This document shows positions 39,273-61,860 of a stretch of DNA of 64,000 nucleotides, one piece after another. How positions within the stretch are numbered: position 1 is the first letter of the stretch; every line of letters begins with the position of its first letter. This DNA is from Planctomycetes bacterium syqfu (lineage in GTDB: Bacteria; Planctomycetota; Phycisphaerae; Phycisphaerales; Phycisphaeraceae): assembly GCA_020974905.1 (NCBI GenBank), contig CP087563.1:4278001-4342000 (forward strand), read 5' to 3'. Both the position numbers and the translations under genes were made by a program. The notes below the pieces were generated by a model. The model did not search any database and was not told the DNA's origin. It saw nothing but the letters and a program-made list of their open reading frames with translations.

Positions 39273-40025
39273 ATGAAACGCACGACATGCAAAAATCTCA
39301 CGACACATCATCACGCATTCACACTCATCGAGTTACTCGTGGTGATTTCAATCATCTCAATACTGATCTCGATTCTGCTGCCTGCGTTGGGTGCGGCTCG
39401 CAAGAGTGCGCGTAATGCACAATGTCAATCCAATCTGCATAGCATGATGGTGACGTTTGGTGTTTACGCAGCAGAGGAGAAGGAATGGATCATGCCGGTG
39501 CTCATGGCCGATCCCGGTGACAGTGCATCGGATACCTGGAATCGACAGCGCAGCTGGTGGCTGATGCGTATCCGCAAGTACATGCCCAACACTGGTTCGA
39601 TCCAGACGTATGATCATGGTACCCCCAGCGTGCTGCGTTGCCCGACAGTTGCCGTGACCGGCTCGAATCAGGAAGTGACTTATGGTTTGAACCAGCATGC
39701 CGGCTGGGGTCCCGTCGGACAATGGGGCTATTCGTCACCGGTGCGTTACAGCCAGGTGCTGCGCCCCAGTGACAAGCTTCTGATTGCCGATGGCAACCGT
39801 TATGCCAAGGGCAATTACTCGGCCCACTTCCTTAAAGTCTATGCCTCATGGATCGACACAGCGACCTATGGCGAATGGCTCGTCTCACGCCGACATCAAG
39901 GTGAGTCGGCCAACTACAGCTTTGTGGATGGGCATGTCACTTCCTCCAAGGAACTTTCCGGTGATGGTTTGGGTTCCACCGCACTTGCCGAACTCAAAGC
40001 CAAACACTGGACGCTGGTTAACTGA
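39273..40025 (+). CDS. Prepilin-type N-terminal cleavage/methylation protein (DUF1559-like)
   Basis: The 250-aa protein begins with a class III signal: a short basic leader, then [20 protein letters not shown], the classical type IV pilin/pseudopilin helix with Glu at +5 after the cleavage site. The C-terminal part ([18 protein letters not shown]) has the H-x(n)-FVDGHV ending common in the large planctomycetal prepilin-like families. These proteins may be pseudopilins of type II secretion-like machines or surface proteins; their partners are unknown. Its place between an epimerase and a GH39-like hydrolase suggests a role at the cell surface in polysaccharide capture. Confidence 0.9.
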
Positions 40026-46300: not shown

Positions 46301-48205
46301 TCAATACAACGTGGTGAGGTTGTATTGTTTCTTGAGGGCTTCGATCTGGGCCTTGACGCGTTCGGATTCGCCGCGGCGGAGCATTTCACTGTACAGGTGA
46401 TGCAGCTTCCAAAAGGCCCAGTCAAAGGGCATTTCCTTGGCACCTTCGGTGGCATCGGAGATGTCCTTGCCAAAGGTCAGGTCCAGCACACGGCGTCCGT
46501 TGTGGCCGACCACACGCATGGTGAACTTGCGCACGCGGTCATACCGGCCGTAAATCTCAAACTTCTCACCCTGATACAAGTTGGGCAAATCCTTGGGATA
46601 CACATCTTCGGGGTCGATCCCAAGCAGACTCATGCGCACGTCTTTCATGAGCGGATATCGCAGACGGCTTGCCAGATCGCGGATGGTCTGAGCGACCTGC
46701 ACTTCGCTGTCAGCATAGACGCAAAAGCCCTTGTTGCGATAAGCCAGGAACTCAAGCAGTGAGCGGTTCTGACGATTGGTCACGCCGACGCAGTAGATGC
46801 TTGCCACCTGATCGTTGTCACGGGTGATGAGATTGATCAGTTCGCGTGTATCCATGACACCCCGCGTCGGGCGTCCGTCGGAGATCATCACCAGGTTGTA
46901 GACACGGGCGACTGCCAGATCGCGCACGAGCAGGCGGGACAGCGCGTGGTTCACGTCGGTCATGCCTTCGGAGTTACGGTCCTGGAGGAACTGTCGCGCT
47001 TTAGCCAGGTTTTCGTCGGTGGCCTCCTGAATCTGGTTGGGGCTGAAAATCACCGGCGATTCGGAGAAGAAGACGATGTTGAATCGGTCTTCCTTATTCA
47101 GTGATGCCAGCGAATCGCGCACGCCACGGACGATCTGGTCCACCCACGTCTGAGGCACAGAGCCTGAGATGTCGATCAGGTAGACAACGTCCTTGGGCAT
47201 GGTGGGTAGACGCTTAAGCGACTTACGCGGGACAATCTCAACTTTGAAGTAACCCCGCCCATCGTCGGTAAACTCAGGCTTGCGGCCGAACCAACCGGTG
47301 TTGGTCTGCTGCGGGGCGACATAGCGGGTGATGTAGTAGTCAAAGTCGTGGTCGAGTTTTTCGGGAATGTTGACCTTGGCCCCCTGCTCCATGGCCAACT
47401 CGGTGAAGTCGACTTCGGGCATTTTCAGCGGGGCATCGACGATGGCATTGTCGACGGTCACATCATGGGCCTCTTCAATCTTGGGCGGTTCGAGTTTACG
47501 CGGCTGGGGATTCATGCCTGCAACGAGGCCGCTACCGAGAAGCGCGTTCTGGGCGCTGCCACTGGCAAAGGCAATGCCGCCTTCACCTGAGCCTGACCCT
47601 TCGCCGTCCCCTTCGTCACCCGTGCCGGTGCCTGGGGTGAACTTGATGTCCAAGGGGATCTGCACGTTCTGAGAGGCCTTGACCGAACTGGGCAGATCGA
47701 CTTCGGGGAAACCCTGGGCGAGTTTGCCTTCATCGAGATTGTCTGCGGGTTTCTCGTCCGTCACATTGCTCAGTTCCACGTCCTCCGTCACGGCCTGAGA
47801 TTGGGCAGGCTGCGGCGGAGCGTTATCCAAAAGGGCTTCGGACATGGCAACGAGGGTGTCCTCATTGACCGTCTGATCCAAAGGCTCGGTGGGTTCTTCA
47901 GGCTTGGTTGGGTCGACCTGTTCTTCGGGGACCGGCTCGACAATGGTGTCCATCTCAGGCACACGTTCGACAACGATCAACTCCCGATCCTGTCCCAGCA
48001 GGTTCGGGTCCATATGCACAAACGATGAGTCCGCGTACTTGAGCAGCAGACCACCATGCGCAATGACGCTGAGTACCAACGCCATCGCGAAGATCAATGC
48101 TGCATGTTCGGCCCAGACGAAATGCTTGGGCATGTTCAAGGCTGATGACACAGCCGTGCGCGGGTCAGTGTCCTGTAAATTGTTTGGGGTTCCGGGGGTG
48201 GGCAT
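46301..48205 (-). CDS. TonB-like VWA-domain protein (module A energy transducer, proposed)
   Basis: The 634-aa protein has one N-terminal membrane helix (about 32-54) containing S46-x3-H50 in VLSVIAHGG, the motif by which TonB and TolA couple to ExbB/TolQ. A Pro/Glu-rich stretch follows (TIVEPVPEEQVDPTKPEEPT), then a Gly-rich region and a VWA domain from about residue 337. The metal site DISGS has D345, S347 and S349. A C-terminal helix ends in QIEALKKQYNLTTLY. Start ATG 48205 has GGAGGAG upstream. It is the last gene of an operon after exbB, two exbD-type genes and a TPR gene. TonB-like coupling is inferred, not shown. Confidence 0.88.
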   Translation of the reverse strand: MPTPGTPNNLQDTDPRTAVSSALNMPKHFVWAEHAALIFAMALVLSVIAHGGLLLKYADSSFVHMDPNLLGQDRELIVVERVPEMDTIVEPVPEEQVDPTKPEEPTEPLDQTVNEDTLVAMSEALLDNAPPQPAQSQAVTEDVELSNVTDEKPADNLDEGKLAQGFPEVDLPSSVKASQNVQIPLDIKFTPGTGTGDEGDGEGSGSGEGGIAFASGSAQNALLGSGLVAGMNPQPRKLEPPKIEEAHDVTVDNAIVDAPLKMPEVDFTELAMEQGAKVNIPEKLDHDFDYYITRYVAPQQTNTGWFGRKPEFTDDGRGYFKVEIVPRKSLKRLPTMPKDVVYLIDISGSVPQTWVDQIVRGVRDSLASLNKEDRFNIVFFSESPVIFSPNQIQEATDENLAKARQFLQDRNSEGMTDVNHALSRLLVRDLAVARVYNLVMISDGRPTRGVMDTRELINLITRDNDQVASIYCVGVTNRQNRSLLEFLAYRNKGFCVYADSEVQVAQTIRDLASRLRYPLMKDVRMSLLGIDPEDVYPKDLPNLYQGEKFEIYGRYDRVRKFTMRVVGHNGRRVLDLTFGKDISDATEGAKEMPFDWAFWKLHHLYSEMLRRGESERVKAQIEALKKQYNLTTLY

Positions 48206-48207
48206 GT

Positions 48208-50757
48208 TTATTGAACTCCTCCCAGGACTTTGAGCTGATTGTCGATACGGGTCAACAGACGCGGGTCGACATTTTCCTGCTCACGGATTTTCTTGAATAG
48301 ACTCGTTGCTGCGATCTTCTGATCCTTGAGCATCGACAGACGTGCGGTGGCATAGGTGCCATAAACACTATCCGGGTAGGCTTCGACCATCTCCTGAAGT
48401 GTTGCTTTGGCTTCGTCGACGTTTTCCATTTCAATGGCAAGCTCAGCCAACTGAATGTTGGCAAGCTCGGGCAGCGGGGAAACTTCCGGGAAGCTGTAAA
48501 GCAGAACCAATCGCTTAAAGCTCATCATCGCAGCTTCGCGTTCGGCGGTGGCGCCAGCAGCATCACTTTCACGCAGGCGAACCTGAACCAACTGGCGATG
48601 AAGCTCACCACTTTCATAGAGCGCCTGACACGCAATGGCGGTCTGCTCCGCGGAGATCAATGACTGGTATTCATCCAGCGCCATTTGATGCTGCCCTGCC
48701 ATGGCAAGGGTCTTGGCCAACTGGATACGCGCTTCGTAACCGTGACCGACACTCATGGCAACGACTTCGCGGAAGGCATCAATCGCTTGATCCAATTTGT
48801 TCTGAGCACGCAACGCCTGGGCACCGAGCATCAACGCCTTGGACAGTTCGCTACGCGAAGCAGTAAGATTCCCATCGAGAATCGGCTTGAGATATTTCAT
48901 CGCCAAATCCGGCTGATTACGCTTGGTGCAGTATTCACCGATCCAGATCAGTTCACGGATGTTCAGGCCGGTGATCCCGACGAGTTTTTCAAGTTCGACA
49001 AGGGTTGCTGCCGCCTGATCATCCTTCTTGTCCTGACGCTGAAGCAGTGAAGCAAAACGCAGGGCATTGACTTTCAAAGGCTTTGCCAACGTCTGAGCCG
49101 CTGCCGCTTCCTTGAAGTCCGCCAAAGCCAGGTCGGTCTTCTTGATGGTGAGATTCAAAAGGCCGCGATAGTAAATGCTATCAGCACGGTAATGGTTCTG
49201 CGGATACTTATCGAGCAATGCCGAAAGGGTCGCAATGGCTTTATCGAACTGCTTAAGTTGGATCAAGGCCAACCCGCGACGGTAGTAACCTTCGGCTTCG
49301 ACCAATGGGTCAAGACCATCAATTTCCAGCAACTTGGCAGCCGCCTGATCTGCCGCTTCAAAGCGGCTGATCTGGTAGTTCAAATCCACCAGTCGGATCA
49401 TCGCCTGGGCGACGGTGTCATCGCCGAGCTTGACCTGATTTTCAGCAGACGGGTACACCGCAGCGTAGGTTTCATAGTCGGTGACGGCATGTTCAAATTG
49501 GTTGATCGATTCATACAGACGGGCGCGTTGGAGCAGAGCCTGTGTGTAGAACGGGTGACGCTGACCTGAGTCGATGATGGCGGTGAGACGCGCTGCTGCA
49601 AGGTTGTTGTCGCCCTGCTTGATCGCTGCCATCGCCAGCAGGTATCCGGCATCGGCTAAACGTGAGGAGTCGGGGAAAGCCTTGCGGAGTTTGGCGATGG
49701 TCTGGGTCATGCCACCGAACTGACCGATCTGATATTGACTGGATGCCAGGCGGTAAAGCACTTTGTCTTCCAGGTCCGAACCGGATGCAGCAGCAAGGAT
49801 GGCACCAAAGAGTGCGACCGCCTTGTTGTGATCACCCATTGATTGATACGAAGCACCCGCAAGATACCAGCCGGTGACGCGGTCCTGATTGCTCAGATGC
49901 TTTTTGTATTGGTCGAAGGCTGCCAGAACTTGGCCGTATTGCTTCTGTTCATAGAGAGACCAAAGCATGCCGGTGATCGCAGGGCCAAGGTGCTGGGAGC
50001 TGGTGTACTGCGTCATGACGACGTTGTAGTACTCGGAGGCCTGATCGTACATTTTCAGTTCAAACGCCAGATCACCTGCAAGGCGACCGGCTTCGGCGGA
50101 GACCTGCGGGTTATTGAGGGTCAGACATTTTTTGAGTGTTGCCAGCGCATCTGCCGGGAGTTTCATGAGCACTTGGATGCGCGCCAGGTCAAGCATCGCC
50201 TGAGCCTTGAGCGAGGAATCAAACTTGATGACTTCCTTAAGCTGTGTTGCAGCAGCGGGCAGGTTGTTCAGGCCGCGATAGCCCTTACCCCGCAGATAGA
50301 AAATCGATGCCTTGGTATCCGAATCCAGATTCTGCAGGTCGATGGATTCAAGGGACTGGACTGCTTTTTCATGTTGGTTCAGATCGGTGTAAACCTGTCC
50401 CTTAAGCAAAAGCACCGCGTGATCGGGGACGTGCATCGGGGCGACGTTTTGTTCGAGGTACTGGATCGCCTGCTGGTTCTGGCCGGTGTTTCGGCAGAGT
50501 AGCGCCCGGTAGTACAACGCGTCACCGCGTTTTTCGTCTTCAGGATAACGTGCCAGGTATTCGTCGAACGCCTGGGCGGAGAGTTGATATTCCTGACGCT
50601 GAAGCAGGCGGTAGGCAAAGACGAACTGCTGATGGGCAGCGGAGTTTTGCGCCTGTGCCGAGTCGGTGACAAAACCGGTAAAGAGCAGCGCGACGAGCAG
50701 CGTTAAACCGCAAGCGGTTTTGAAACGGGGACATGAGAACCGTTGGACATTGATCAT
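48208..50757 (-). CDS. Exported TPR-repeat protein (module A)
   Basis: The 849-aa protein has a signal peptide (cleavage near SAQA) and then about 20 tetratricopeptide repeats, e.g. DALYYRALLCRNTGQNQQAI, QAMLDLARIQVLMKLPADAL, DSIYYRGLLNLTIKKTDLAL. TPR solenoids bind protein partners; in Tol systems the periplasmic TPR protein CpoB/YbgF links energy use to envelope synthesis. The stop codon lies 2 nt before the VWA gene start and its 3' end contains that gene's ribosome site, so translation is coupled. It is probably a periplasmic scaffold for the VWA protein. Confidence 0.88.
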   Translation of the reverse strand: MINVQRFSCPRFKTACGLTLLVALLFTGFVTDSAQAQNSAAHQQFVFAYRLLQRQEYQLSAQAFDEYLARYPEDEKRGDALYYRALLCRNTGQNQQAIQYLEQNVAPMHVPDHAVLLLKGQVYTDLNQHEKAVQSLESIDLQNLDSDTKASIFYLRGKGYRGLNNLPAAATQLKEVIKFDSSLKAQAMLDLARIQVLMKLPADALATLKKCLTLNNPQVSAEAGRLAGDLAFELKMYDQASEYYNVVMTQYTSSQHLGPAITGMLWSLYEQKQYGQVLAAFDQYKKHLSNQDRVTGWYLAGASYQSMGDHNKAVALFGAILAAASGSDLEDKVLYRLASSQYQIGQFGGMTQTIAKLRKAFPDSSRLADAGYLLAMAAIKQGDNNLAAARLTAIIDSGQRHPFYTQALLQRARLYESINQFEHAVTDYETYAAVYPSAENQVKLGDDTVAQAMIRLVDLNYQISRFEAADQAAAKLLEIDGLDPLVEAEGYYRRGLALIQLKQFDKAIATLSALLDKYPQNHYRADSIYYRGLLNLTIKKTDLALADFKEAAAAQTLAKPLKVNALRFASLLQRQDKKDDQAAATLVELEKLVGITGLNIRELIWIGEYCTKRNQPDLAMKYLKPILDGNLTASRSELSKALMLGAQALRAQNKLDQAIDAFREVVAMSVGHGYEARIQLAKTLAMAGQHQMALDEYQSLISAEQTAIACQALYESGELHRQLVQVRLRESDAAGATAEREAAMMSFKRLVLLYSFPEVSPLPELANIQLAELAIEMENVDEAKATLQEMVEAYPDSVYGTYATARLSMLKDQKIAATSLFKKIREQENVDPRLLTRIDNQLKVLGGVQ

Positions 50758-50760
50758 GGT

Positions 50761-51174
50761 TTACAACTCACTGTTGTTGGTATTGGATGTCGCCACGCTG
50801 ATCTGAGTCAGACCGGCTTTTTTCGCAGCATCCATCAAGGCGATGGCATCACTGAAAGGCGTGTTGGGATCGGCCTTGATCACAAGCGTCTGCTTAGCGT
50901 CCTGCTGAGCCAACTGGCCCATGAGCGCATCGACCTGATTGGCGGTGTAGGTTTTGCCCTTGCAGGAAATCTGGCCATGGGCATCAAGGTGGATCACCGT
51001 CGTACCGGGTTGGCTGACAGTTTGCTGAGGCTTGGCAACGGAGCAGGATTGCGAGCAGGCACAACCACCGAGCATGACCAATGACAAGGCTGCGACACAC
51101 CCCATGAAAATGCCAACCGGACGATTGGCCGGGAAACGGTGTTGTGAAGTTGGCTTGTCATTGAGCTTGATCAT
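50761..51174 (-). CDS. ExbD/TolR-like periplasmic domain on a lipoprotein (module A)
   Basis: The 137-aa protein (ATG 51174 with AGGAG just upstream) ends in an ExbD/TolR-type peptidoglycan-binding domain: TTVIHLDAHGQISCKGKTYT, LVIKADPNTPFSDAIALMDA, AGLTQISVAT. Its only hydrophobic segment, IFMGCVAALSLVMLGGCACS, lacks the proton-relaying Asp of ExbD and looks like a lipoprotein signal (LGGC). The mature protein would then be a Cys-rich lipoprotein rather than a channel subunit. It follows the true exbD by 24 nt and the TPR gene starts 3 nt after it. It may hold or sense the cell wall for the motor. Confidence 0.8.
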   Translation of the reverse strand: MIKLNDKPTSQHRFPANRPVGIFMGCVAALSLVMLGGCACSQSCSVAKPQQTVSQPGTTVIHLDAHGQISCKGKTYTANQVDALMGQLAQQDAKQTLVIKADPNTPFSDAIALMDAAKKAGLTQISVATSNTNNSEL

Positions 51175-51198
51175 GGGCACTCCTGTTGCTGTCAGGGA

Positions 51199-51621
51199 TC
51201 ACAATTCGCTTTGGAGTTTGGAGGTGGCAATGCTGATGTTACGCAGACCCGACGCACGGGCCACGTCCATCACCTGGACCGCCAAACCAAATGCCGAACC
51301 TTTATCGCCACGGACGACAACGGTTTCATTGGGGAACTGCTGGGCAAGCTTGGCCATCGTCGCCTGAAGCTGTTCAAGCTTGTAGGGGCGATCACCAATG
51401 TAAATCTCACCGGTCTCCGTGATCGTCACGATGATCGGCGTCTTGGACTGGGGCGCGGTGGCAGTCTGCGTGTCAGGCAGCGAGATATCAATCTGCTTTT
51501 CCTGTTCACGGAAGACTGAAACCGTCATGAAAAACACCAGCAGCAAAAACAGCATGTCAACCATGGCTGACAGCGGCAAGACCGGCTGAGAGCGTCCTCG
51601 GGTTTCAGCAGCAAAACTCAT
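51199..51621 (-). CDS. exbD: ExbD/TolR-family motor subunit (module A)
   Basis: The 140-aa protein has the ExbD layout: a short cytoplasmic tail, one helix with the conserved Asp (D22 in LSAMVDMLFLLLVFFM), and a periplasmic domain (IDISLPDTQTAT, IIVTITETGEIYIGDRPYKL, VVVRGDKGSAFGLAVQVMDV). ExbD forms a dimer inside the ExbB pentamer and converts proton flow into motion. Its ATG overlaps the stop codon of exbB (ATGA), indicating coupled translation. Confidence 0.93.
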   Translation of the reverse strand: MSFAAETRGRSQPVLPLSAMVDMLFLLLVFFMTVSVFREQEKQIDISLPDTQTATAPQSKTPIIVTITETGEIYIGDRPYKLEQLQATMAKLAQQFPNETVVVRGDKGSAFGLAVQVMDVARASGLRNISIATSKLQSEL

Positions 51622-52379
51622 GCATCACCCCGCTTCATGTGGTCGGCCAATGAGTGAACGACTTCCTCAGCCGAAGCCAGGCTGCGGGTCAGACGACTCT
51701 TGACGATGGAGTAGCAGAAAGTAGCCAAAATGGCGACGATCAGACCGAACATGGTGGTGGCCATTGCCTGACCGATGCTGGTGCTCAGAGCGCTGGATGA
51801 AGCTGAGAGTGATTCAAACTTCATGGCAAAGAAGGCCTTGATCATCCCCAGCACGGTGCCGAGCAGTCCGAGCATGGGCGCGACGTTGGCGATGTCCGCC
51901 AGGTAGCTGATGCGGTTCCAGAGGATGTCGCTGCGACGCTTGCCTTCGGAGTCCACCATGTCCATGATGACCGAGTGATCCTTGCCGGCGTTCTCGACAC
52001 AGCGTTGGATGATCGAAGCGACAAAGATTTTCTGATGGGTTCGGCAGAAGTGAGCGGCTTCGTCAAACTTCTTGGCCAGGACGAGCTTGTTCACATCATC
52101 GACAAAGCGGCAGGGCGCCAGCGTGGAGGTGTTGATGGTGGCAACGAAGAAGAGGAAGAAGAGGATGGCAAAGACGGAGAGCGCCAGGATGATGCCGTTG
52201 ATGATGGGGCTGGTCTGGTAGAGTTCGATGATGGTCGGGCCTTTGCCGGTCGCCGCATCGATGCCGCCGAGTTCTTCCTGGGCCATGACGACGGTGGTCG
52301 CGAGCATGGTAAACACTGCCATTGCCAATCCGACCATGCGGAAAGGAAATCGGTCGGTCATGGTACGTTGCTTCATCAT
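51618..52379 (-). CDS. exbB: ExbB/TolQ/MotA-family proton channel (module A)
   Basis: The 253-aa protein has an N-terminal signal-like helix and then the ExbB core with three helices. The conserved lining is present: NVAPMLGLLGTVLGMIKAFF and GQAMATTMFGLIVAILATF with the Thr residues that surround the ExbD Asp. The start MMKQRTMTD follows GAGG closely. It heads a five-gene operon exbB-exbD-exbD-like lipoprotein-TPR-VWA. ExbB proteins with N-terminal extensions are common in planctomycetes. Confidence 0.93.
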   Translation of the reverse strand: MMKQRTMTDRFPFRMVGLAMAVFTMLATTVVMAQEELGGIDAATGKGPTIIELYQTSPIINGIILALSVFAILFFLFFVATINTSTLAPCRFVDDVNKLVLAKKFDEAAHFCRTHQKIFVASIIQRCVENAGKDHSVIMDMVDSEGKRRSDILWNRISYLADIANVAPMLGLLGTVLGMIKAFFAMKFESLSASSSALSTSIGQAMATTMFGLIVAILATFCYSIVKSRLTRSLASAEEVVHSLADHMKRGDA

Positions 52380-52925: not shown

Positions 52926-53255
52926 TTACCGCGAAGTCCGGCCGCCGCCGCCGCCGGTTGCGTTGATGCGACCGAAATACTGGGCGAGGTTAATGTTCTG
53001 GACCAGGCGCAGTTGCTTGCGGGCGACGTCGGTGTTGTAAATCAACAGACGTTGGCTGGTGTTTTCGAGAATGCAGAGCACTTCGTCATTGTCGCGGGCG
53101 CGGAGGGTCATGGCACTGACCGGGGCGTCGTTGACGACCATCGCCGCGTTTGCCTCGGCGAGAATACTTTTATCCTGCAGTTGCATAAAGACCATCGCTG
53201 CCAACACAAAAGCTGACGCGAGCAGAGAATAACAGGCCAGGGTGGTTCTGTTCAT
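52926..53255 (-). CDS. Small exported or membrane-anchored protein, unknown
   Basis: The 109-aa protein has an N-terminal hydrophobic helix (LLASAFVLAAMVFMQLQ), a short beta-rich middle (AMTLRARDNDEVLCILENTS, RLLIYNTDVARKQLRLVQNI) and a Gly/Arg tail (FGRINATGGGGGRTSR). I recognise no family. A GAAAGGA-type site precedes the start. It forms a same-strand cluster with two other tiny exported proteins (53280 and 53748) between the two Exb modules, which hints at a common role. Confidence 0.7.
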   Translation of the reverse strand: MNRTTLACYSLLASAFVLAAMVFMQLQDKSILAEANAAMVVNDAPVSAMTLRARDNDEVLCILENTSQRLLIYNTDVARKQLRLVQNINLAQYFGRINATGGGGGRTSR

Positions 53256-53279: not shown

Positions 53280-53562
53280 TTAGTTACCGCGCAAAGCACC
53301 GAGCATGCTTGCACCGTCGATCGGTTCCCATGTATCGGTGGCGGAGTTGTAAAACGCCGCCACGATTCGGGCCGAGTTCATTTCAATGATGTAGATGACA
53401 TCCTGCTGACCGCGACCCTGTGTGGGGCCGGAGACCATCAGGAAACGCGCTGCGGCAAAGCCTTGAGCCTGCGCCGGCTGGGGAGCCAACGTCGTCAAAA
53501 CCAATGCCAGGAGCAGCACAACATTCAGCGCAATCAGCGGCTGGTAGTGAGCGTTTACCCAT
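53280..53562 (-). pseudogene. Small exported protein, unknown, with start out of frame
   Basis: The conserved-looking frame encodes a signal peptide (LIALNVVLLLALVLTTLAP, cleavage near QPAQA) and a short mature part (MVSGPTQGRGQQDVIYIIEM, NSARIVAAFYNSATDTWEPI). The part DVIYIIEMNSARI parallels LCILENTSQRLLIYN in the neighbouring small protein. An excellent ribosome site (AGGAGG) and ATG lie at 53562, but that ATG is in another frame, so a one-base shift would be needed to read MGKRSL into the signal peptide. In-frame alternatives are only a distant TTG at 53612. It is either a frameshift, a sequencing error or an unusual start. Confidence 0.55.
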
Positions 53563-53747
53563 CGTATTACCTCCTGTGATGTTAAACCGTCATGTTCGGG
53601 TTGAAGTTGCAATAAGGCGGGGCCGACTGGTCATTTACCGTGAGAAGTCGGAGATCAGGCATGTCCAGTGTCATGCACCTGTGACACCTCATTCGTCCAT
53701 CACATCACGTCGCGGACGATCAGGGCAAGGGCATCGTTACGTCAAAC

Positions 53748-53954
53748 TCAGTCCTGGTGTCCACGGCGAGAACCCCAGACGCTGGCCACGATAATCGCCA
53801 CCGACAGAATAAACGCAATAAACGCTGAAAGCCTGTAGCCTTTTTCCGGTGCCTTGTCCACGCTCAGGGCCTGCGCCCAGATTGGGGATGCTGTCACCAT
53901 CAAAGTCATCAAGGCCACGATAATGGATTGAAGCTTTTTCACAGACATGATCAT
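53748..53954 (-). CDS. Small membrane protein with signal peptide, unknown
   Basis: From ATG 53954 (MIMSVKKLQS) the 68-aa protein has a signal peptide (IIVALMTLMVTASPIWAQ) and one further helix near the C-terminus (LSAFIAFILSVAIIVASVWG) ending in basic residues (SRRGHQD). That topology resembles small subunits of membrane complexes. It belongs to the tiny-protein cluster between the two Exb modules. The start is uncertain because the ribosome site is weak; 53948 is an alternative. Confidence 0.55.
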   Translation of the reverse strand: MIMSVKKLQSIIVALMTLMVTASPIWAQALSVDKAPEKGYRLSAFIAFILSVAIIVASVWGSRRGHQD

Positions 53955-54146
53955 ACGACAGGTCCGGGGGGGGTTCAAGATGTTGGTCCAACAACCGTGA
54001 TCAATATCAACCATGCATAAAGCCAACACAAGCCGCCAGATGAATGACCAAGATCATGAAACAGCCGGTTTGTGAGCACCAAGAGCCGCGCACGCAGTAA
54101 GCGGATGCCCTGGGAGATGGACATGATGCCAGTCGTATTCAAAATT

Positions 54147-54574: not shown

Positions 54575-55309
54575 TCAGTGAACCTGACCACGACGGGGCT
54601 TGCGGTTGCGACCGAGCAACATGCCTGCACCGATGACCAACAGGGCTGCACTGGCCGGTTCGGGGACACCTGCGACATTGACCTTGAAGATCACGTCGTT
54701 GTAGTCCTGATCACCAAGCTTGCCGGAGCTCTTGTTGTAGCGGATGTCTTCCAGACCCACGAGCAGGCCCTGGTCGGTGTCGAAGATCAGGAAGTGATCG
54801 GTGACACGCGAGCCCTTGTTGTCTTCGTTCATGTCGTTGATGCTGTAGAACTGTTCATTGCCGGAGTTGACGTTGACGTAGAAGGCGAAGATGGAGTCTT
54901 CTTCGACGGTCACGGTTGCGATCGTGCCCACCGGGTCAATGTTGTTGGTAAAAGCATGGAGGTATGAGAAGTTCGACGGATCGGACAACGGAGCCCAGGC
55001 AACACCAAGCTGGTTGTTGTAGCTGGCGGAGGAACCGAGGTATTCGAAGGTGACATTGGCAGCACCGCCGGTGACGGTAAAGGCCTGCCACTGTGTCTGA
55101 TCGTTGGCAACGCTCAGGTCGTTACCTGCCACGGTAAAGCCGTAGGCATCAGCAACACTTTGCAGGGAGGGGTCAGCACTGTTGTAGACGGTATCACTGC
55201 CCGAGTCACCGAGTGTCAAGCCGGTGATGACTGCGGCATTGGCGGTCGAGAAGCTGCCAACAAGCACAGCCAGGCCGGTGAGAACTGTTTTGAGAATCTT
55301 CTTTTGCAT
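54575..55309 (-). CDS. PEP-CTERM sorted exported protein with DUF4114-like domain
   Basis: From ATG 55309 (MQKKILKTVLTGLAVLVGSF) the 244-aa protein has a signal peptide cut after NANA or ANA. The mature domain ends with GDQDYNDVIFKVNV, the acidic DxDxND loop typical of DUF4114 and similar calcium-binding domains. The C-terminus VPEPASAALLVIGAGMLLG followed by NRKPRR is a complete PEP-CTERM sorting signal: motif, membrane helix, basic tail. Exosortase (not in this window) would cut at the PEP motif and release or anchor the protein, usually together with exopolysaccharide. It stands alone between the two Exb modules. Confidence 0.9.
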   Translation of the reverse strand: MQKKILKTVLTGLAVLVGSFSTANAAVITGLTLGDSGSDTVYNSADPSLQSVADAYGFTVAGNDLSVANDQTQWQAFTVTGGAANVTFEYLGSSASYNNQLGVAWAPLSDPSNFSYLHAFTNNIDPVGTIATVTVEEDSIFAFYVNVNSGNEQFYSINDMNEDNKGSRVTDHFLIFDTDQGLLVGLEDIRYNKSSGKLGDQDYNDVIFKVNVAGVPEPASAALLVIGAGMLLGRNRKPRRGQVH

Positions 55310-55792
55310 GAGGTGTTCGCTTTCGTTTGCGGGTTCAAGCGTCGTGGCCAATAAACGGGTGGACTCTGACGCCAGAGTGCCCTGGACCTGTGTGAACCAA
55401 ACGATTTGGAAAATGCAATTGCCAAACAAAAAGATTCAAAATCCGCCCCAGACGTCCGGCTGTGACGGCTGCGGGAAGTTGGTAAAGATGGTCAGCTAAA
55501 AGGGACTAGAAACTAGAGACTTGGGACTAGGGTAAAGGCAGTGAAAAGCCTTGTCCCTCCCGGGGCACGGGTTGCCTTGCGTCACACCGGTGATGCGACC
55601 CGTGACGCAGGAGCGTCACGGCTTTCAAAGCCAACTCCCCGATTTTGCCGGTCACACTGCCCAGCCAAGAAGACAATTCACTAACGACCGATAATCCGCG
55701 TTGAATCCGACATCGCAATGCGTTAACGTGCATCAATCGCATCCATATAAAGACAACCAAACCCACCAAGCGGGTTTTCAGGGACGAAACCG
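55310..55792. other. 483-bp intergenic region between the PEP-CTERM gene and module B
   Basis: This gap must hold the promoter of the PEP-CTERM gene and that of module B. About 55555-55624 is a GC-rich palindromic block with GTGACGC-agga-GCGTCAC; its cgggttgccttg is shared with the hairpin at 23241. I see no gene and no convincing promoter. Confidence 0.5.
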
Positions 55793-56869
55793 TTGGAAGA
55801 CAAGGGATTTATTGACCAATCGCAGTGGCAGGCCATCCTGGATCAACAGGCCTCTGTCACTGCGCCGGATCAGAATCGCCCGATACCTTCGCCGGTGACG
55901 CCTTCCCGACGCATCGGCCCGTGGGCGTTGTCGATCCTGTTGCATGTCGTGCTGGTTGCCATCGCCTTGATCTGGGTCTGGCGTGACAAACCCCAACAGC
56001 GCATCCAACCTGTCATCCCCACCGCAACGCTCTCTGCCATGGCAGGTGGTCCGGCCATCGCGCCCGATCATCAGACGGTCGACGCGCTCCCCGAAGTGGA
56101 TATGCAGAAAATCATGACGCCCACCTTCGACGCCTTACCGGGCCTGGACACCGCACCAGGTGCTGACACCGCCTCCCTGCTCGCCCCCTTGCCCACTCCG
56201 ACTGCCATCGCCCCCAAACCCCAACCGATCGCACCCACCCCGACACCCACGCGCACCAACCCCTTTGCAGGCATCATGCCCCAGGCACTGGAACCGGCTG
56301 CCGCCTTCTTCGGTGTCGCAGGCAATGCCAAGCGCATCGTCTATGTCGTTGACGCGTCGGGCTCACTGGTCGACACGCTCCCTTACGTGCTCACGGAACT
56401 CAGTCGCTCCATCAGTCGCCTCGACAAGCAGCAGCAATTCACCGTGCTGTTTTTCCAGGGCAATGATCTACTGGAACTCCCCCCTGCCGGGACCGGCTTG
56501 CGACATGCCACCGCGGTGAACATCAACACGGCTGTGAAATGGATCACCCCCGAAGCGGGCAATCTCTTTGCCAAGGGGCGCTCCAACCCGTTACCTGCCA
56601 TCCGCAAAGCGTTGGGGTATCAGCCGGAGATGCTCTTCCTGCTCACCGACAACCTCGCTGCCCAGCAGACCGGCGTGCAGGATGATGCAGCATTGCTCGA
56701 TCAGATCACCCAAGCCAACACCACCCACGCTGCGATCCACACCATTCAGTTCCTTTACAGGGACGCAACGGATCAACAAGCTGAGAACGTGCCACTGCTC
56801 AAACAACTCGCAGACCGCAACGGCGGGAAATACACCTTCGTCGATGCCAAGGACCTTAAAACACCATGA
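55793..56869 (+). CDS. TonB-like VWA-domain protein (module B energy transducer, proposed)
   Basis: The 358-aa protein begins at TTG 55793, preceded by AGGGA. A cytoplasmic segment of 40 residues leads to one membrane helix (about 42-63) with S47-x3-H51 in ALSILLHVVL, the TonB/TolA coupling motif. A Pro/Thr-rich linker follows (PKPQPIAPTPTPTRTNPF), then a VWA domain from about residue 180 with RIVYVVDASGS (D187, S189, S191). It is shorter than the module A protein but has the same order of parts. Its stop overlaps the exbB start (ATGA). Here the VWA gene is first in the operon, whereas in module A it is last. Confidence 0.87.
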   Translation: MEDKGFIDQSQWQAILDQQASVTAPDQNRPIPSPVTPSRRIGPWALSILLHVVLVAIALIWVWRDKPQQRIQPVIPTATLSAMAGGPAIAPDHQTVDALPEVDMQKIMTPTFDALPGLDTAPGADTASLLAPLPTPTAIAPKPQPIAPTPTPTRTNPFAGIMPQALEPAAAFFGVAGNAKRIVYVVDASGSLVDTLPYVLTELSRSISRLDKQQQFTVLFFQGNDLLELPPAGTGLRHATAVNINTAVKWITPEAGNLFAKGRSNPLPAIRKALGYQPEMLFLLTDNLAAQQTGVQDDAALLDQITQANTTHAAIHTIQFLYRDATDQQAENVPLLKQLADRNGGKYTFVDAKDLKTP

Positions 56870-57723
56870 CCCCCGGAAGCCCCCAAACCAGCACAACGCC
56901 ATGCCACCTGCCTGGTCGATCCAAGTATCGATTGATCAGCACGGTCGGCTTATTCGTCACCGCGGTTTTATCACTCACCGCAACGCTCCACGCACAGGAC
57001 ACCCCTGCCAGTGACGGCTCGACTTTCGCTGCCATGTTCCTCTCCAGTGATGACGTGATCGGCCTGGCCATCATCTGGTTACTCTTAGCCATGAGCACCG
57101 TGAGCATTGCCTGGTCGCTTTGGCTGATGCTCAACGTCAAGCGTGCGATCCTCATCCCCACGCAGACCCAGGAGCAGGTGAGCATGATGCTCGCGGAGAA
57201 GCAGTACCGCCAGGCCATCGACTTTGCGCAGACGGATCATTCCTATCTGGGTCAACTCATCCGTGCTGCATTGGGTGAAGCAAGTAGTGGGTATGCTGCC
57301 ATGCAAAACGCCTTGGAAGAAACCGCGGACATTCAGACGGCGCGACTGCTCCGTCCTGTCGAATACCTCAACGTGCTGGGCAACATCGCCCCCATGATCG
57401 GACTCTTTGGCACGGTGTACGGGATGATCGTCGCTTTCCAGAAACTCGTCGCAGCAGGTGGTAAACCCAACCCCGCTGAACTGGCCGACGGCATCAGCAC
57501 CGCATTGGTCACCACCTTCTGGGGACTCGTCGTGGCCATCCCAGCGCTCGCCGCCTACGCCGTCCTGCGTAACCGCATCGAAGCACTCACCAGTGAAGGC
57601 TTACTCGCTGCTGACGAACTCATCCGCCCGTTCAAACCGGTCATGAAGTCCGCCGCCCCCGCTACACAGGCGATGCAAAACGCAGCAAGACCCCAACCGC
57701 GCCCGCATGGAGAGAATGGTTAA
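56866..57723 (+). CDS. exbB: ExbB/TolQ/MotA-family proton channel (module B)
   Basis: The 285-aa protein has an N-terminal signal-like helix (TVGLFVTAVLSLTATLHAQ) and then the ExbB core: IAPMIGLFGTVYGMIVAFQ and ISTALVTTFWGLVVAIPALA with the conserved Thr residues, ending in a Pro/Ala-rich tail. It is homologous to the module A channel but clearly diverged. The start codon lies in the stop of the VWA gene. The 10-mer CCCCCGGAAG sits right after its start codon (56870-56879). Confidence 0.93.
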   Translation: MTPGSPQTSTTPCHLPGRSKYRLISTVGLFVTAVLSLTATLHAQDTPASDGSTFAAMFLSSDDVIGLAIIWLLLAMSTVSIAWSLWLMLNVKRAILIPTQTQEQVSMMLAEKQYRQAIDFAQTDHSYLGQLIRAALGEASSGYAAMQNALEETADIQTARLLRPVEYLNVLGNIAPMIGLFGTVYGMIVAFQKLVAAGGKPNPAELADGISTALVTTFWGLVVAIPALAAYAVLRNRIEALTSEGLLAADELIRPFKPVMKSAAPATQAMQNAARPQPRPHGENG

Positions 57724-57743: not shown

Positions 57744-57850
57744 GATTTTTACCACAGATGAACACAGATAAACACAGATGTAAGACAGTGATTCACAGAG
57801 AAGCCAATCCGCTTCTTATCTGTGTTCATCTGTGTTTATCTGTGGTTAAA
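57744..57850. repeat. CACAGATGAA-unit inverted repeat inside the module B operon
   Basis: The left arm accacagatgaacacagata pairs with the right arm tctgtgttcatctgtgttta and tctgtggt. TAAGACA (57781-57787) follows the left arm and aaagatttttacc precedes it. The element separates exbB from exbD in an operon in which the other junctions overlap, so it probably inserted there. Confidence 0.85.
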
Positions 57851-57875
57851 TTGCCTTGAACACAAGCGACTTGTT

Positions 57876-58382
57876 ATGTCACGCAGACTCCATAAATCCG
57901 AACCTGTCTCACCGCAGATGAACATGACGCCGTTGATTGACGTGACGTTTCAGTTGATCATTTTCTTCATGTTGGTGAGTAACATCATTGGCCAGGAAGC
58001 CGTGCCGATGAAGGTTCCGCAGTTGTTTGATCCGCAGACGCGGCAACTGGGCGAATCGGATCGCGTGGTCGTCAACGTCATCCCCAACGATGATGCAACT
58101 TTGAGTCCATGGGTGCAGGTCGGCTTAACGCGACTTCGCAGCACCGATCGCATCGCTATCAACGAAGCACTCACCGAAGCGGTGTCGAAGAATGCCAACG
58201 TGCAGGTCGTGCTGCGAGCTGATGGCTCACTGAACTATCAACAGGTCCGGCCGATCATCACTGCGATCCGAGATGCTGGCGTGAGTATCGTGCATCTGGT
58301 TGCTCAAGACGCCCCCGGAACTCCCGGAAGCCTCGAAAGCCCCGCAAATGCTGAGGGCTCCGGCGAAGGGGGCACACCATGA
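57876..58382 (+). CDS. exbD: ExbD/TolR-family motor subunit 1 (module B)
   Basis: From ATG 57876 (MSRRLHKSEP) the 168-aa protein has the ExbD helix with the conserved Asp (D22 in MNMTPLIDVTFQLIIFFML) and the periplasmic domain (RVVVNVIPNDDATLSPWVQV, VQVVLRADGSLNYQQVRPII). A longer upstream frame reads through the preceding repeat and is rejected. The C-terminus has a low-complexity Gly/Ser/Pro tail (GTPGSLESPANAEGSGEGG) whose DNA contains CCGGAAG microrepeats. Its stop overlaps the next gene's ATG. Confidence 0.92.
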   Translation: MSRRLHKSEPVSPQMNMTPLIDVTFQLIIFFMLVSNIIGQEAVPMKVPQLFDPQTRQLGESDRVVVNVIPNDDATLSPWVQVGLTRLRSTDRIAINEALTEAVSKNANVQVVLRADGSLNYQQVRPIITAIRDAGVSIVHLVAQDAPGTPGSLESPANAEGSGEGGTP

Positions 58383-58885
58383 GTGGACACACCTACGATC
58401 AGGCGACGTTAGCCAAGCGGTTTGCATCACGACGTGCAGCCAAGCGCAAGAGTCCGGTGATGCGGCTGAATCTGACGGCCATGATTGATGTGATTTTTTT
58501 GCTGCTGGTTTACTTCGTGGTCACCGCCAATTTTGCGACCGGTGAAGGTGTGTTGACGACGAATTTGCCAAGCAACGCTGCGGGTGATTTTGCGATTGAC
58601 GCCCCACCGGTGATGCCGTTGCGTGTGTATTTGTATGCCGGTGACAATGCACAAGCTTCCGGGGGCGAAGGATACAAAATCCGCATCGTCGGCCAAACCG
58701 ATCAACCCCAAACCTTCAGCGCGTTAGCAACGACACTGGAGCAACTCAGCAAGCACATGAATACGTCTGACCCCGTGATCATCCAGCCGGTAGGGCAGGT
58801 GAAATGGGAACACGTGTTAGGTGCGTTTAACGCTGCCGTCAAAGCCAAATTCCAGAACGTCCAATTCGGGGAGCAGACGCAGTGA
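58379..58885 (+). CDS. exbD: ExbD/TolR-family motor subunit 2 (module B)
   Basis: The 168-aa protein has a longer basic N-terminus (FASRRAAKRKSPVMRLNLTA), the helix with its Asp (D37 in AMIDVIFLLLVYFVV) and a periplasmic domain (VMPLRVYLYAGDNAQASGGE, DPVIIQPVGQVKWEHVLGAF). Two different ExbD proteins per ExbB suggest a heterodimeric core in the channel. The gene overlaps both neighbours: ATGA with the first exbD and TGATG with the TPR gene. Confidence 0.92.
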   Translation: MSGHTYDQATLAKRFASRRAAKRKSPVMRLNLTAMIDVIFLLLVYFVVTANFATGEGVLTTNLPSNAAGDFAIDAPPVMPLRVYLYAGDNAQASGGEGYKIRIVGQTDQPQTFSALATTLEQLSKHMNTSDPVIIQPVGQVKWEHVLGAFNAAVKAKFQNVQFGEQTQ

Positions 58886-61860
58886 TGAAACATGCAAGCA
58901 ACACGCGAGCTTCTTTCCATGAGCACCGCATGTCAATGCGGTGCAGGTCGAACATGCGTATGCGCAACGACAACCTGCACCGGATTCACATCCGGTGCTC
59001 CATGCTCGTGATGTTGATCATGTTCGTCATTTCACTACTCATGCCCAACAAACTCTCTGCACAGGACGATGTGATTGCACTGGGTTTGAAAATCGAACGC
59101 ATGCGTTTGCAGCAGCAGACCGATGAGCTTTACGCATTCAGAGATGACATTGCACTGCGCCAAAAACCAACACTCGGTGAATATGCTGCATGGTGCGCCC
59201 GACTGATTGTCGAGCGCCAACGCAATGACGTGCGATTGCTCAATATGATCTCCAATTCGATTCAATCCATGCCGGAAGATCATCCCTGTGCCCCACTATG
59301 GACCATGCTTGGCGTCGAATCATTCCTCTATGACATCTGTGCAACACACCCCATTGATCCAGCCACAATCACCGCTCTGGGGTATCCAACGGATGCACAA
59401 CGGCAAAACATCCATGAATTCTCAGCCAAGCTCCAACCCAAACTTGCCAACGCATATAAGCAACTCGAGCAATTCCCCATCGAAGCCCGGGCAATCATGC
59501 AACAGCGATGTGCTTTTCTGCTTGCACAAACCAATTACCTGCTGGCACTTTCCCATGAGGATGTTGATCGCAAGGCATTACTCACACAAGCACACGAGGT
59601 CTTACAACCATTACTCACAACGGTGATTGATGAATGGCAGATGCAGAATCGCGCGATTTGGTTAGACACGTTGATTCGTCTTGCTTTGGGCAATGTCGAC
59701 GCATCGCCAATCATCACGCCACATGAACAGGACAACATCCAAACCCGACTTATTCACGCCAAAACAATGGCAACCATCGGCAAGACCCAAACCGCAGACG
59801 CGTTATTAAACACATTGGCACAAGCAGTCGATACAGACGATCCGACGATGCAACTTGCCATCGCTGACAGTATGCATCAACTCTGGTTTGCGCGTGGTGA
59901 TTACCAACGTGCTTTTGGCATGTATCTGCGACTGCTCAACAACAAGCCCTCACAAACACTCTACGATGCCATTGCATCACGCTGGCATATGCCACAAGTC
60001 ACTGGTAATGCACTTGAAGTTTTGCCGGATGATGTTCTCTTTGTGATCGCCCAACAGATGTCCGACATCACGCGTTTCAATCTACATCACCAAAAACAAT
60101 CATTGATAATTGCCATCAAGATGCTTGTCATGTTACGTGATCGAGATAAAGCAATTGAGATACTCAATAAAAATGCAAAACTACTCACCATCAACGATCC
60201 CAACATCCAACAGGTATTGAAAGAGACGAAACAGCAACTCAAAGTACCTTACAACCAAACAACCCGAACAGTCTTATCAAAATTTGTGAAGTTCTTAGAA
60301 GATCATGATCCGCAAACCTTCTCCAATCTAATGCGATCTCCTCAAGATCGCAGAGGTTTATTTGCTTATGATTTTTCCGACCTCTCGACTCACAAATTCA
60401 ACCAGGCACAACAAGCCACAAAATCCAGTGAACAAGCCATGTCGCTGGCAATCAAGTACCTGACCACCTTACGCCAGCGAGAGTCCGTGGTGAATAGTCC
60501 GATGCATCAGCGAGTGCAATTGCTTTGGGCGAGGATCATGCCGATGCGTCAACCGGATGATGTTGGCGTTGCTTTGGAATCGCTGGGTATGCTCAGCGAA
60601 CTGGCATCGCACACCAACGACCAAGCATTGGTTTACGATGCACTGAATCAAGCCATCGAACATTGTAACGCATTACTCAAACAGAACGATGCCAATCTCA
60701 AGGCGCAGGTAATCAGCAGCTATCAACCCATCGCACGAATTCTGTTTGGTCGGTTCAACACCAGTGAATTAGCAGACAACACGCGACTGTTCGACGTCGT
60801 GGCTGTGCGACTTCCTGCTAAGGAATATGCTTTGGCGTTGCAGCGGTTGGCGGATATGCCTGCCAATCATCCGCAGTATTGGCAGAGTTTGCGGTACCAA
60901 TTGGGGATTTACCGACAGCTTGCCAATCATCCGGATTGGCCATCGGAGCGGATTGTTGCAGCGATCGCGCCGATTCGGGATCAGGCGGTGAGACATCTGC
61001 CGGGAGCGAACAATGAGCAGCAGCAGACCATCGCGCAGGTGGCCATCGAAGCCTCGGGTATGCTCTGGCAAGCGGCGGTGAAAAATCAGGATTGGCAAAG
61101 TGCAGCAGACCAACTGCAATGGCTCGAATCGTCTCGCCAAATCACTGCCCAAACCAAACGCACCTGGCTCACCCGCCGACTGGTGAGTCTGCAACGTGCA
61201 GCAATGTGGCAGGCGACGAACCGGTTGGCAACACAGCTACTCCATGACGATGGCAGAGCAAGCTTCCCGGTCATCATGCAAATCATGGAAGTGATGCAGC
61301 AACAACGCCGATCCCAAACGCACGCGGTGATGCTTGGTAAACGTGATGCGATTGATGCGGCATTGCTCGATGCGTTAAGCGGGCTATCGCAAAGCGCAGT
61401 CAAATGGGCGATGGTCAACGTGGAAGATGAACACCAGGTGCTGCTTGCCAAGATCATCTGGGCAGCGTGTCTCAAGGAGTCGGGGCAGACGCGCGATGCG
61501 CTGGCTTTGCTCACGCCATTAACCGGGCAGTTTGGTGATGAGCCTGATTTACTCATGACGATTGCTGAGTGTCATTTCAAATTGGCATCGCCTGCCAACT
61601 TTCAGCAGGCCGCCAAGCTGTATCATCAAATCATTTCAAGAAGTCTGCCGGATGCCAAGGGCAAATTTCCTTCACGGTATTGGCAGGCGTGGACGCGGTA
61701 CCTGCAAATCTGTGATCGGACCAAACAGCATACCGATGTGATCGCCTCGCGCATCAACAGTCTCAAAGCTGAAGATCCGACGCTCGGCGGAGAGCCATGG
61801 GCAGTGCTTCTTGGCAGCTTGTTTGAACGCTATACTGCATCGCAGACACCGATAAAATAG
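58885..61860 (+). CDS. Large exported TPR-like protein (module B)
   Basis: The 991-aa protein is helical throughout with degenerate TPR units (LLNTLAQAVDTDDPTMQLAI, MLGKRDAIDAALLDALSGLS, DEPDLLMTIAECHFKLASPA). ATG 58885 overlaps the exbD stop (TGATG), so translation is coupled. The first 39 residues are encoded by a GAGCACCGG repeat read in frame, giving an Arg/His-rich leader; a typical signal peptide (MLVMLIMFVISLLMPNKLSA) starts only at residue 40 (ATG 59002). Either the repeat inserted into the start region and is tolerated, or the true start is 59002. It is the counterpart of the module A TPR protein. Confidence 0.85.
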   Translation: MKHASNTRASFHEHRMSMRCRSNMRMRNDNLHRIHIRCSMLVMLIMFVISLLMPNKLSAQDDVIALGLKIERMRLQQQTDELYAFRDDIALRQKPTLGEYAAWCARLIVERQRNDVRLLNMISNSIQSMPEDHPCAPLWTMLGVESFLYDICATHPIDPATITALGYPTDAQRQNIHEFSAKLQPKLANAYKQLEQFPIEARAIMQQRCAFLLAQTNYLLALSHEDVDRKALLTQAHEVLQPLLTTVIDEWQMQNRAIWLDTLIRLALGNVDASPIITPHEQDNIQTRLIHAKTMATIGKTQTADALLNTLAQAVDTDDPTMQLAIADSMHQLWFARGDYQRAFGMYLRLLNNKPSQTLYDAIASRWHMPQVTGNALEVLPDDVLFVIAQQMSDITRFNLHHQKQSLIIAIKMLVMLRDRDKAIEILNKNAKLLTINDPNIQQVLKETKQQLKVPYNQTTRTVLSKFVKFLEDHDPQTFSNLMRSPQDRRGLFAYDFSDLSTHKFNQAQQATKSSEQAMSLAIKYLTTLRQRESVVNSPMHQRVQLLWARIMPMRQPDDVGVALESLGMLSELASHTNDQALVYDALNQAIEHCNALLKQNDANLKAQVISSYQPIARILFGRFNTSELADNTRLFDVVAVRLPAKEYALALQRLADMPANHPQYWQSLRYQLGIYRQLANHPDWPSERIVAAIAPIRDQAVRHLPGANNEQQQTIAQVAIEASGMLWQAAVKNQDWQSAADQLQWLESSRQITAQTKRTWLTRRLVSLQRAAMWQATNRLATQLLHDDGRASFPVIMQIMEVMQQQRRSQTHAVMLGKRDAIDAALLDALSGLSQSAVKWAMVNVEDEHQVLLAKIIWAACLKESGQTRDALALLTPLTGQFGDEPDLLMTIAECHFKLASPANFQQAAKLYHQIISRSLPDAKGKFPSRYWQAWTRYLQICDRTKQHTDVIASRINSLKAEDPTLGGEPWAVLLGSLFERYTASQTPIK
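58921..59000. repeat. GAGCACCGG double-hairpin repeat, copy 3, inside a coding region
   Basis: CACCGCAT-gtca-ATGCGGTG and GCACCGGAT-tcac-ATCCGGTGC. Compared with copies 1 and 2 both stems carry compensatory changes (G-C to C-G in the first, G-C to A-T in the second), so pairing is kept. The element is read in frame as the extended N-terminus of the TPR protein. Confidence 0.85.

Follow-up and report, generated by a model that had tools for sequence, protein, structure and literature searches.

Two ExbB–ExbD gene clusters of a planctomycete encode TonB-like proteins ending in a von Willebrand A domain

A stretch of 64,000 nucleotides from the genome of Planctomycetes bacterium syqfu (GenBank assembly GCA_020974905.1, contig CP087563.1, positions 4,278,001 to 4,342,000, here called the window), which is assembled as one contig of 7.38 Mb, contains two gene clusters in which the subunits of an ExbB/TolQ-like motor are encoded next to a membrane protein ending in a von Willebrand A (VWA) domain, a binding module known chiefly from adhesion proteins. 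Analysis of the two VWA proteins, VWA1 and VWA2, confirmed the observation from which the work started, namely that each is TonB-like, with a single N-terminal membrane helix carrying Ser-x3-His and a VWA domain where TonB has its C-terminal domain. The genes of cluster 1 and then cluster 2 are as follows, in window coordinates.

exbB1, 51618..52379, minus strand: ExbB/TolQ-like motor pentamer subunit; PF01618 E-value 4e-25; Ser68 in the first transmembrane helix (TM1); pore Thr residues retained
exbD1a, 51199..51621, minus strand: ExbD/TolR-like, membrane Asp present; PF02472 E-value 6e-30
exbD1b, 50761..51180, minus strand: ExbD periplasmic domain with an LGGC lipobox and without the membrane Asp; PF02472 positions 44-127 only
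TPR1, 48208..50757, minus strand: large TPR protein, probably exported, lying between exbD and VWA; TPR and YbgF-type matches
VWA1, 46301..48205, minus strand: transmembrane helix 35-57 with S46/H50; mostly disordered linker; VWA at approximately 338-515; C-terminal strand/helix part; similar to inter-alpha-trypsin inhibitor heavy chains (ITIH)
VWA2, 55793..56869, plus strand: transmembrane helix 42-64 with S47/H51; Pro-rich linker; bare VWA at approximately 181-350
exbB2, 56866..57723, plus strand: ExbB/TolQ-like, TM1 Ser retained; PF01618 E-value 6e-30
exbD2a, 57822..58382, plus strand: PF02472, membrane Asp; the actual start may be a downstream ATG
exbD2b, 58379..58885, plus strand: PF02472, membrane Asp
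TPR2-type large protein, 58882..61860, plus strand: weak TPR signal (PF13432 weak)

The gene order is exbB1, exbD1a, exbD1b, TPR1, VWA1 in cluster 1 (minus strand) and VWA2, exbB2, exbD2a, exbD2b, TPR2-type gene in cluster 2 (plus strand), with open reading frame (ORF) coordinates giving 4-base overlaps at four neighbouring gene pairs across the two clusters. In both, exbB and exbD are neighbours and are encoded together with the VWA gene, as the original prediction had stated. Paired tolR-like genes are present in cluster 2; cluster 1 has one ordinary exbD and the Asp-less lipoprotein. The interval 46301-52379 also encodes TPR1 and exbD1b, neither of which the original prediction mentioned.

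In AlphaFold2 models, VWA1 consists of a helix at residues 35-57, a mostly low-confidence stretch to approximately residue 280, and then the VWA domain with a C-terminal strand/helix part; in VWA2 a helix at residues 42-64 is joined through a low-confidence linker to a bare VWA domain. S46/H50 of VWA1 and S47/H51 of VWA2 fall within the predicted helices, and the numbering first given for them is correct. Pfam identified the VWA domain in VWA1 (E-value 8e-11, residues 339-507) and, below threshold, a VWA_3 match in VWA2 (25.4 bits against a cut-off of 27 bits), and the fold was backed in both proteins by AlphaFold2 and Foldseek, with the DxSxS metal site intact in each, in agreement with the initial reading. 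A Pfam scan found no match to TonB_C or to the TolA C-terminal domain in either protein, so their assignment as canonical TonB or TolA was rejected; with the predicted VWA folds, this fits the earlier statement that a VWA domain replaces the C-terminal domain of TonB. The Pro-rich linker ascribed to both proteins stood for VWA2 (approximately 19% Pro) and did not for VWA1, in which the linker is 10% Pro and more acidic. By fold, the top solved-structure match of VWA1 was an inter-alpha-trypsin inhibitor heavy chain, and its sequence profile also matched these chains (H4, E-value 8e-40; H1, 6e-35). Three other assignments were rejected: membership of VWA1 in TIGR03788 (129 bits against a cut-off of 552); VWA1 as a secreted VWA of the sortase-target type, the distant matches (L196-L204) being without the motif and without exbBD in 9/9 cases; and a cytoplasmic VWA domain, as Arg/Lys pairs precede the helix in many Hydrogenedentota rows (by eye), placing the N-terminus inside.

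The residues on which an ExbB–ExbD motor depends appear intact in both clusters and their relatives. The ExbD membrane Asp was present in 100/103 sequences of the first loci, and an Asp motif in 47/47 tested from Hydrogenedentota; the three Asp-less sequences were exbD1b and its orthologues in two congeneric genomes. This gene, found in three of the four genomes of the window's genus (the fourth, G002, is without it), encodes a lipoprotein-type signal with LGGC at its end, followed by the ExbD periplasmic domain. The ExbB pore Thr was invariant in a 12-row alignment. Ser68 in TM1 of exbB1 is the counterpart of TolQ Ser28 and ExbB Ser34, the column having been placed by aligning it with HMMER to TolQ chains of solved structure; the Ser28 segment of E. 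coli TolQ forms a separate low-scoring piece there, and that of another TolQ lies within the main alignment. This Ser was present in 28/29 ExbB of the cluster-1 type and 33/33 of the cluster-2 type; the sole exception is a Gly at locus L192, where the VWA protein, or arm, carries Tyr in place of the motif His, and a non-cognate ExbB of the same genome retains Ser at that column (by eye).

Conservation of the motif in homologues, on which the original prediction had staked its reading, held. The His was kept in 32/33 VWA1 loci having the N-terminus, the exception being the Tyr of L192, and in 47/48 VWA2 proteins having the N-terminus, and it is the most conserved helix position in both families. 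The motif Ser was less constant, being present in 29/33 VWA1 loci (otherwise Thr in two, Gly in one and Val in one) and in 40/48 VWA2 proteins (otherwise Ala in six and Met in one, with one protein showing no such helix). Chance occurrence was rejected, as S-x3-H was found in 4/428 control hydrophobic segments, taken one per ORF of at least 150 residues from the same loci, some of these ORFs not being real genes. Proteins with truncated N-termini (L089, L092 and one L215 fragment) are omitted from the counts, and the motif helices were read by eye, an automatic hydrophobicity threshold having missed several true cases, with VWA1 motif positions set manually for the recount. Two alignments, A1 and A2, admitted only [ST]x3H rows, which overstates motif conservation within them, and they were not used for these counts; the filter excluded L103, L109, one protein each of L122 and L126 and the truncated L089 and L092, and L090 (A1) and L108 (A2) are absent from those alignments despite having the motif. 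Separately, tandem VWA2-type arms, two or three beside one exbB, were observed at L119, L122, L124, L126, L213, L215 and L216, some with Ala or Met for the Ser and all retaining the His wherever the N-terminus is present.

Gene order was similarly retained. With four further loci that stop at a contig end and 14 loci duplicating genomes already in the set left aside, an exbB, an exbD and a TPR gene were found within 6 kb of VWA1 and on its strand in 30/31 assessable loci, the 30 coming from Planctomycetota, Hydrogenedentota and Auribacterota. Of 40 VWA2 loci (41 less L108, which is cut by a contig end), 33 have exbB and two or more exbD genes adjacent, and a TPR2-type match was near VWA2 in 30 of the 33 loci having exbB. 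The proposal that such VWA genes lie beside exbBD in other genomes is thus largely upheld. In other genera, the VWA1 clusters observed have one exbD and not a pair. As a side observation, an extra TPR-like gene recurs in 24/41 VWA2 loci and, in the 14 with listed positions, is located next to VWA2, towards exbB; in the window's genus, the three genomes that include this stretch are without the gap that it occupies.

In cryo-electron microscopy structures from E. coli, the arm Ser and His touch ExbB Ser34 and Trp38 in the case of TonB, and TolQ Ser28 and Trp32 in the case of TolA (PMC12215075). Because the Tyr arm of L192 was paired with a Gly ExbB, the Hydrogenedentota were surveyed for coupled variation at the arm His and the ExbB TM1 Ser. 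Both positions were available at 44 of 59 loci, the other 15 lacking one of the two (at L314 the ExbB gene is fragmentary, being cut by the start of a contig, and out of order), and the residue pairs (arm/ExbB) were His/Ser in 14, His/Gly in 4, Tyr/Gly in 24, Tyr/Ala in 1, Gln/Gly in 1 and Tyr/Ser in none (Fisher p 2.7e-8, kinship ignored). By normalised mutual information (MI), the His column ranked first among 582 VWA columns as a predictor of the ExbB Ser column, which in turn came first of 215 for the arm His, and the pair ranked seventh of 87,360 column pairs under normalised MI with average product correction and ninth under the MIp measure. None of 400 tree simulations attained the observed association, in either direction. 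The arm Ser was retained at 14/14 loci with the ExbB Ser versus 12/30 loci without it. This coupled variation is read as indirect evidence that the arm docks on the motor at the TonB site, and, since the natural Tyr comes with a compensating small ExbB residue, it argues for a membrane His that acts through packing against ExbB. Together with the motif conservation and the exbB–exbD synteny it fits the TonB-like coupling helix originally proposed, and that interpretation was largely right. No report of covariation between a VWA arm and ExbB was found in open-licence literature (titles and abstract starts), nor was sequence covariation present in section 8 or the searched passages of PMC12204202.

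Several observations weigh against this picture. Without background correction the His/Ser pair ranked only 465th (normalised MI) or 31,927th (raw MI) of the 87,360 pairs, and an independent-pairs test offered three pairs on well-supported branches (six on all), with which significance is unreachable; on average over the three, the ExbB trait changed the same way in 0.9 pairs, the opposite way in 0.0 and showed no difference in 2.1. The covariation is confined to Hydrogenedentota relatives of VWA1, the pair being invariant in the window's lineage and the ExbB Ser being invariant beside VWA2. In place of the Trp partner of E. coli ExbB and TolQ stand Leu, Phe, Ile or other residues, with Leu in 23/44 and Phe in 9/44 Hydrogenedentota loci. 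The genome encodes two TonB_C proteins, both outside the VWA clusters, and only one has a helix of the same kind (SVTLH), the other (C1:365613-365849) having a helix without Ser-x3-His. At VWA1 locus L195 a TPR gene adjoins, with no exbBD next to it and other genes upstream. The motif is present, with no exbB match in the fetched stretch, at six VWA2 loci that belong to two other families (L217, L219, L220, L221, L207 and L224); for L220 this stretch includes only 1.3 kb downstream, near a contig end. At L214 a 1058-residue frame matching the VWA2 profile is without both the motif helix and, in the fetched stretch, exbB. Distribution across the phylum is patchy at strict cut-offs, with the VWA2 profile matching 12/294 genomes at an E-value of 1e-35 and the VWA1 profile 14/294 at 1e-60, several of the latter through the VWA part alone, in searches that scored just the best 4 to 8 candidates per genome.

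The motif-bearing VWA2 genes without a neighbouring exbB could potentially indicate that the helix is a plain membrane anchor of the BatA/BatB type, making no contact with ExbB, with Ser-x3-His as inherited baggage in genes that are otherwise functionally linked, and the pairing of VWA and TPR genes is reminiscent of Bat operons. Such an anchor is highly improbable, however, given that the His is the best-kept helix position in both families and covaries with the exact ExbB position that contacts it in TonB–ExbB.

Among relatives, VWA2 matches were found in 41/41 at an E-value of 0.001 and VWA1 matches in 33/41, these being strong (E-value below 1e-90) in 17/41, some of which are contig fragments. 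Within the class, VWA1 matched 24/150 genomes at 1e-30, many through the VWA part alone, and in Hydrogenedentota a VWA1-type arm was present in 60/68 genomes searched at the same threshold, with a complete exbB–exbD–TPR–VWA set in 45/58 fetched regions and the remaining 13 reaching a contig end. The contrast between a VWA2 family found in every relative and a strong VWA1 signal in fewer than half raises the tentative possibility, compatible with docking of both arms on ExbBD, that the two have unrelated jobs, VWA2 serving a general envelope system and VWA1 a specialised surface machine, such as an Agl/Glt–CglB-like one for adhesion or gliding. A profile comparison of the two families aligned their VWA domains alone, and VWA1 differs further in its ITIH homology and in three additional small genes located 5' of exbB1.

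sA, 52926..53255, minus strand: small single-transmembrane protein; no Pfam match
sB, 53280..53612, minus strand: small single-transmembrane protein; no Pfam match
sC, 53748..54029, minus strand: small membrane protein; Pfam matches weak and sub-threshold

These three genes co-occur, an iterated search having placed all three at an identical 12/36 VWA1 loci. Against a division of labour of this kind, inspection by eye, without a family-library scan, of those recurring flank genes that were listed identified no adhesion or gliding family; clustering of flank genes showed no clear target, with dtd- and bioB-like genes recurring among the matches listed (by eye). Two further genes near the clusters were noted by eye, a pilin-like gene with a type IV prepilin-type N-terminus (39273-40025) and one for a PEP-CTERM-like protein (54575-55429).

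The best overall explanation, to which a probability of roughly 0.75 is assigned, is that each cluster encodes a proton-driven 5:2 ExbB/ExbD motor and a VWA force transducer dedicated to it. An ExbB pentamer would surround an ExbD dimer, one such motor being formed per cluster, and the single helix of the transducer, with its N-terminus inside, would dock at the TonB/TolA site on the outer face of one ExbB subunit, where the arm His, and usually also the Ser, would pack on the conserved ExbB TM1 Ser. The stretch directly following the helix is probably a strand that the ExbD periplasmic domain would grip, termed the 'motor box' by Williams-Jones et al. (PMC12204202). The mostly unstructured linker would extend into the periplasm, where the metal-site VWA domain may bind a ligand, the likeliest candidates being the TPR protein encoded alongside and a partner in the outer membrane, and proton flow would then turn or tilt the motor and tug on the VWA module, performing mechanical work at the outer envelope.

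As VWA domains are often ligand-binding modules, the direction of signalling could potentially be the reverse, with the VWA protein docking on ExbBD as a sensor or regulator whose ligand gates or assembles the motor, and with ExbD working on the cell wall. The helix, motif and synteny data are also compatible with such a sensor, and the Ser–His network is discussed as a signal path in the E. coli Ton/Tol cryo-electron microscopy paper (PMC12215075). It is nevertheless considered unlikely, since the long, mostly disordered linkers, as in TonB and TolA, suit reach and pulling, and the nearest known parallels are force transducers.

Returning to the force-transducer explanation, a more elaborate version joins its unusual parts: the interface may have been re-engineered from His/Ser to Tyr/Gly as a natural orthogonal form of the TonB-site lock, the Asp-less ExbD lipoprotein may be a membrane-tethered clutch or cap competing with ExbD for the arm, and the pulled object may be the ITIH-like metal-dependent binding module, which would make the machine a periplasmic or surface gripping motor. 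This combination is doubtful as a whole and regarded as quite improbable. If the simpler explanation is true, TonB and TolA would be two cases of a general design, an ExbBD-type motor with interchangeable arms, and the Tyr/Gly variants would provide a direct test of whether the membrane His of TonB and TolA acts by packing or by chemistry available only to His. As of 2025 no deletion phenotype had been reported for the arm class (PMC12204202, section 8), yet its VWA1-type form occurs in the large majority of the Hydrogenedentota genomes searched.

The VWA1/VWA2 system belongs to a published class, the vWA force transducers described by Williams-Jones et al. in 2025 from synteny and AlphaFold3, with a Ser/His motif and with TPR, TolQ-like and paired TolR-like genes in the Planctomycetes–Verrucomicrobia–Chlamydiae (PVC) group (PMC12204202), and the reading given here is therefore not new. 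A gliding role was proposed there for vWA arms by analogy; the text at that point calls the VWA protein AglZ, and the title of the work that it cites says CglB (PMC12204202). To this description the present analysis adds the covariation, the occurrence in 60/68 genomes of Hydrogenedentota, the similarity of part of VWA1 to ITIH, the ExbD lipoprotein without the Asp, and sA, sB and sC as small companion genes. The present proteins resemble the class in the SHLS-type Ser/His transmembrane helix, the disordered linker and the C-terminal vWA domain, as well as in the TolQ-like, paired TolR-like and TPR genes and in their occurrence in Planctomycetes and other phyla (PMC12204202). They differ in the single exbD of VWA1 clusters outside the window's genus, in the Asp-less ExbD lipoprotein added within that genus, and in the ITIH-like C-terminal part of VWA1, the fold of the class being likened in passages of PMC12204202 to E. 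coli YfbK. A second family in that source, the TPH-vWA proteins, shares a VWA domain and a TolQ-like motor; its members are described as bearing an ExbD-like Asp helix themselves, with no tolR gene (PMC12204202), whereas here the Asp is borne by separate exbD genes.

Comparison with TonB–ExbBD reveals the same Ser-x3-His helix, linker and ExbB and ExbD partners, with the docking pair covarying in relatives, but the VWA proteins are without a TonB C-terminal domain, the Trp38 equivalent is not conserved, there is a dedicated TPR partner, and the genome, which has 13 MotA/ExbB and 16 ExbD matches in all, has two separate TonB_C proteins. Tol–Pal (TolA–TolQR) likewise shares the helix motif and the TolQ/TolR homologues, and TPR1 scores above the YbgF model cut-off, but neither VWA protein matches the TolA C-terminal domain; TolB and Pal had no match among the ten cluster proteins scanned, the rest of the genome not having been searched for either. 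The Myxococcus AglRQS–Glt–CglB machinery offers a parallel in its one MotA/TolQ-like (AglR) and two MotB/TolR-like (AglQ/S) proteins (PMC9389320) and in its VWA surface protein CglB (PMC13104615). CglB, however, is by its description in PMC13104615 a surface protein and not a motor-docked transmembrane arm.

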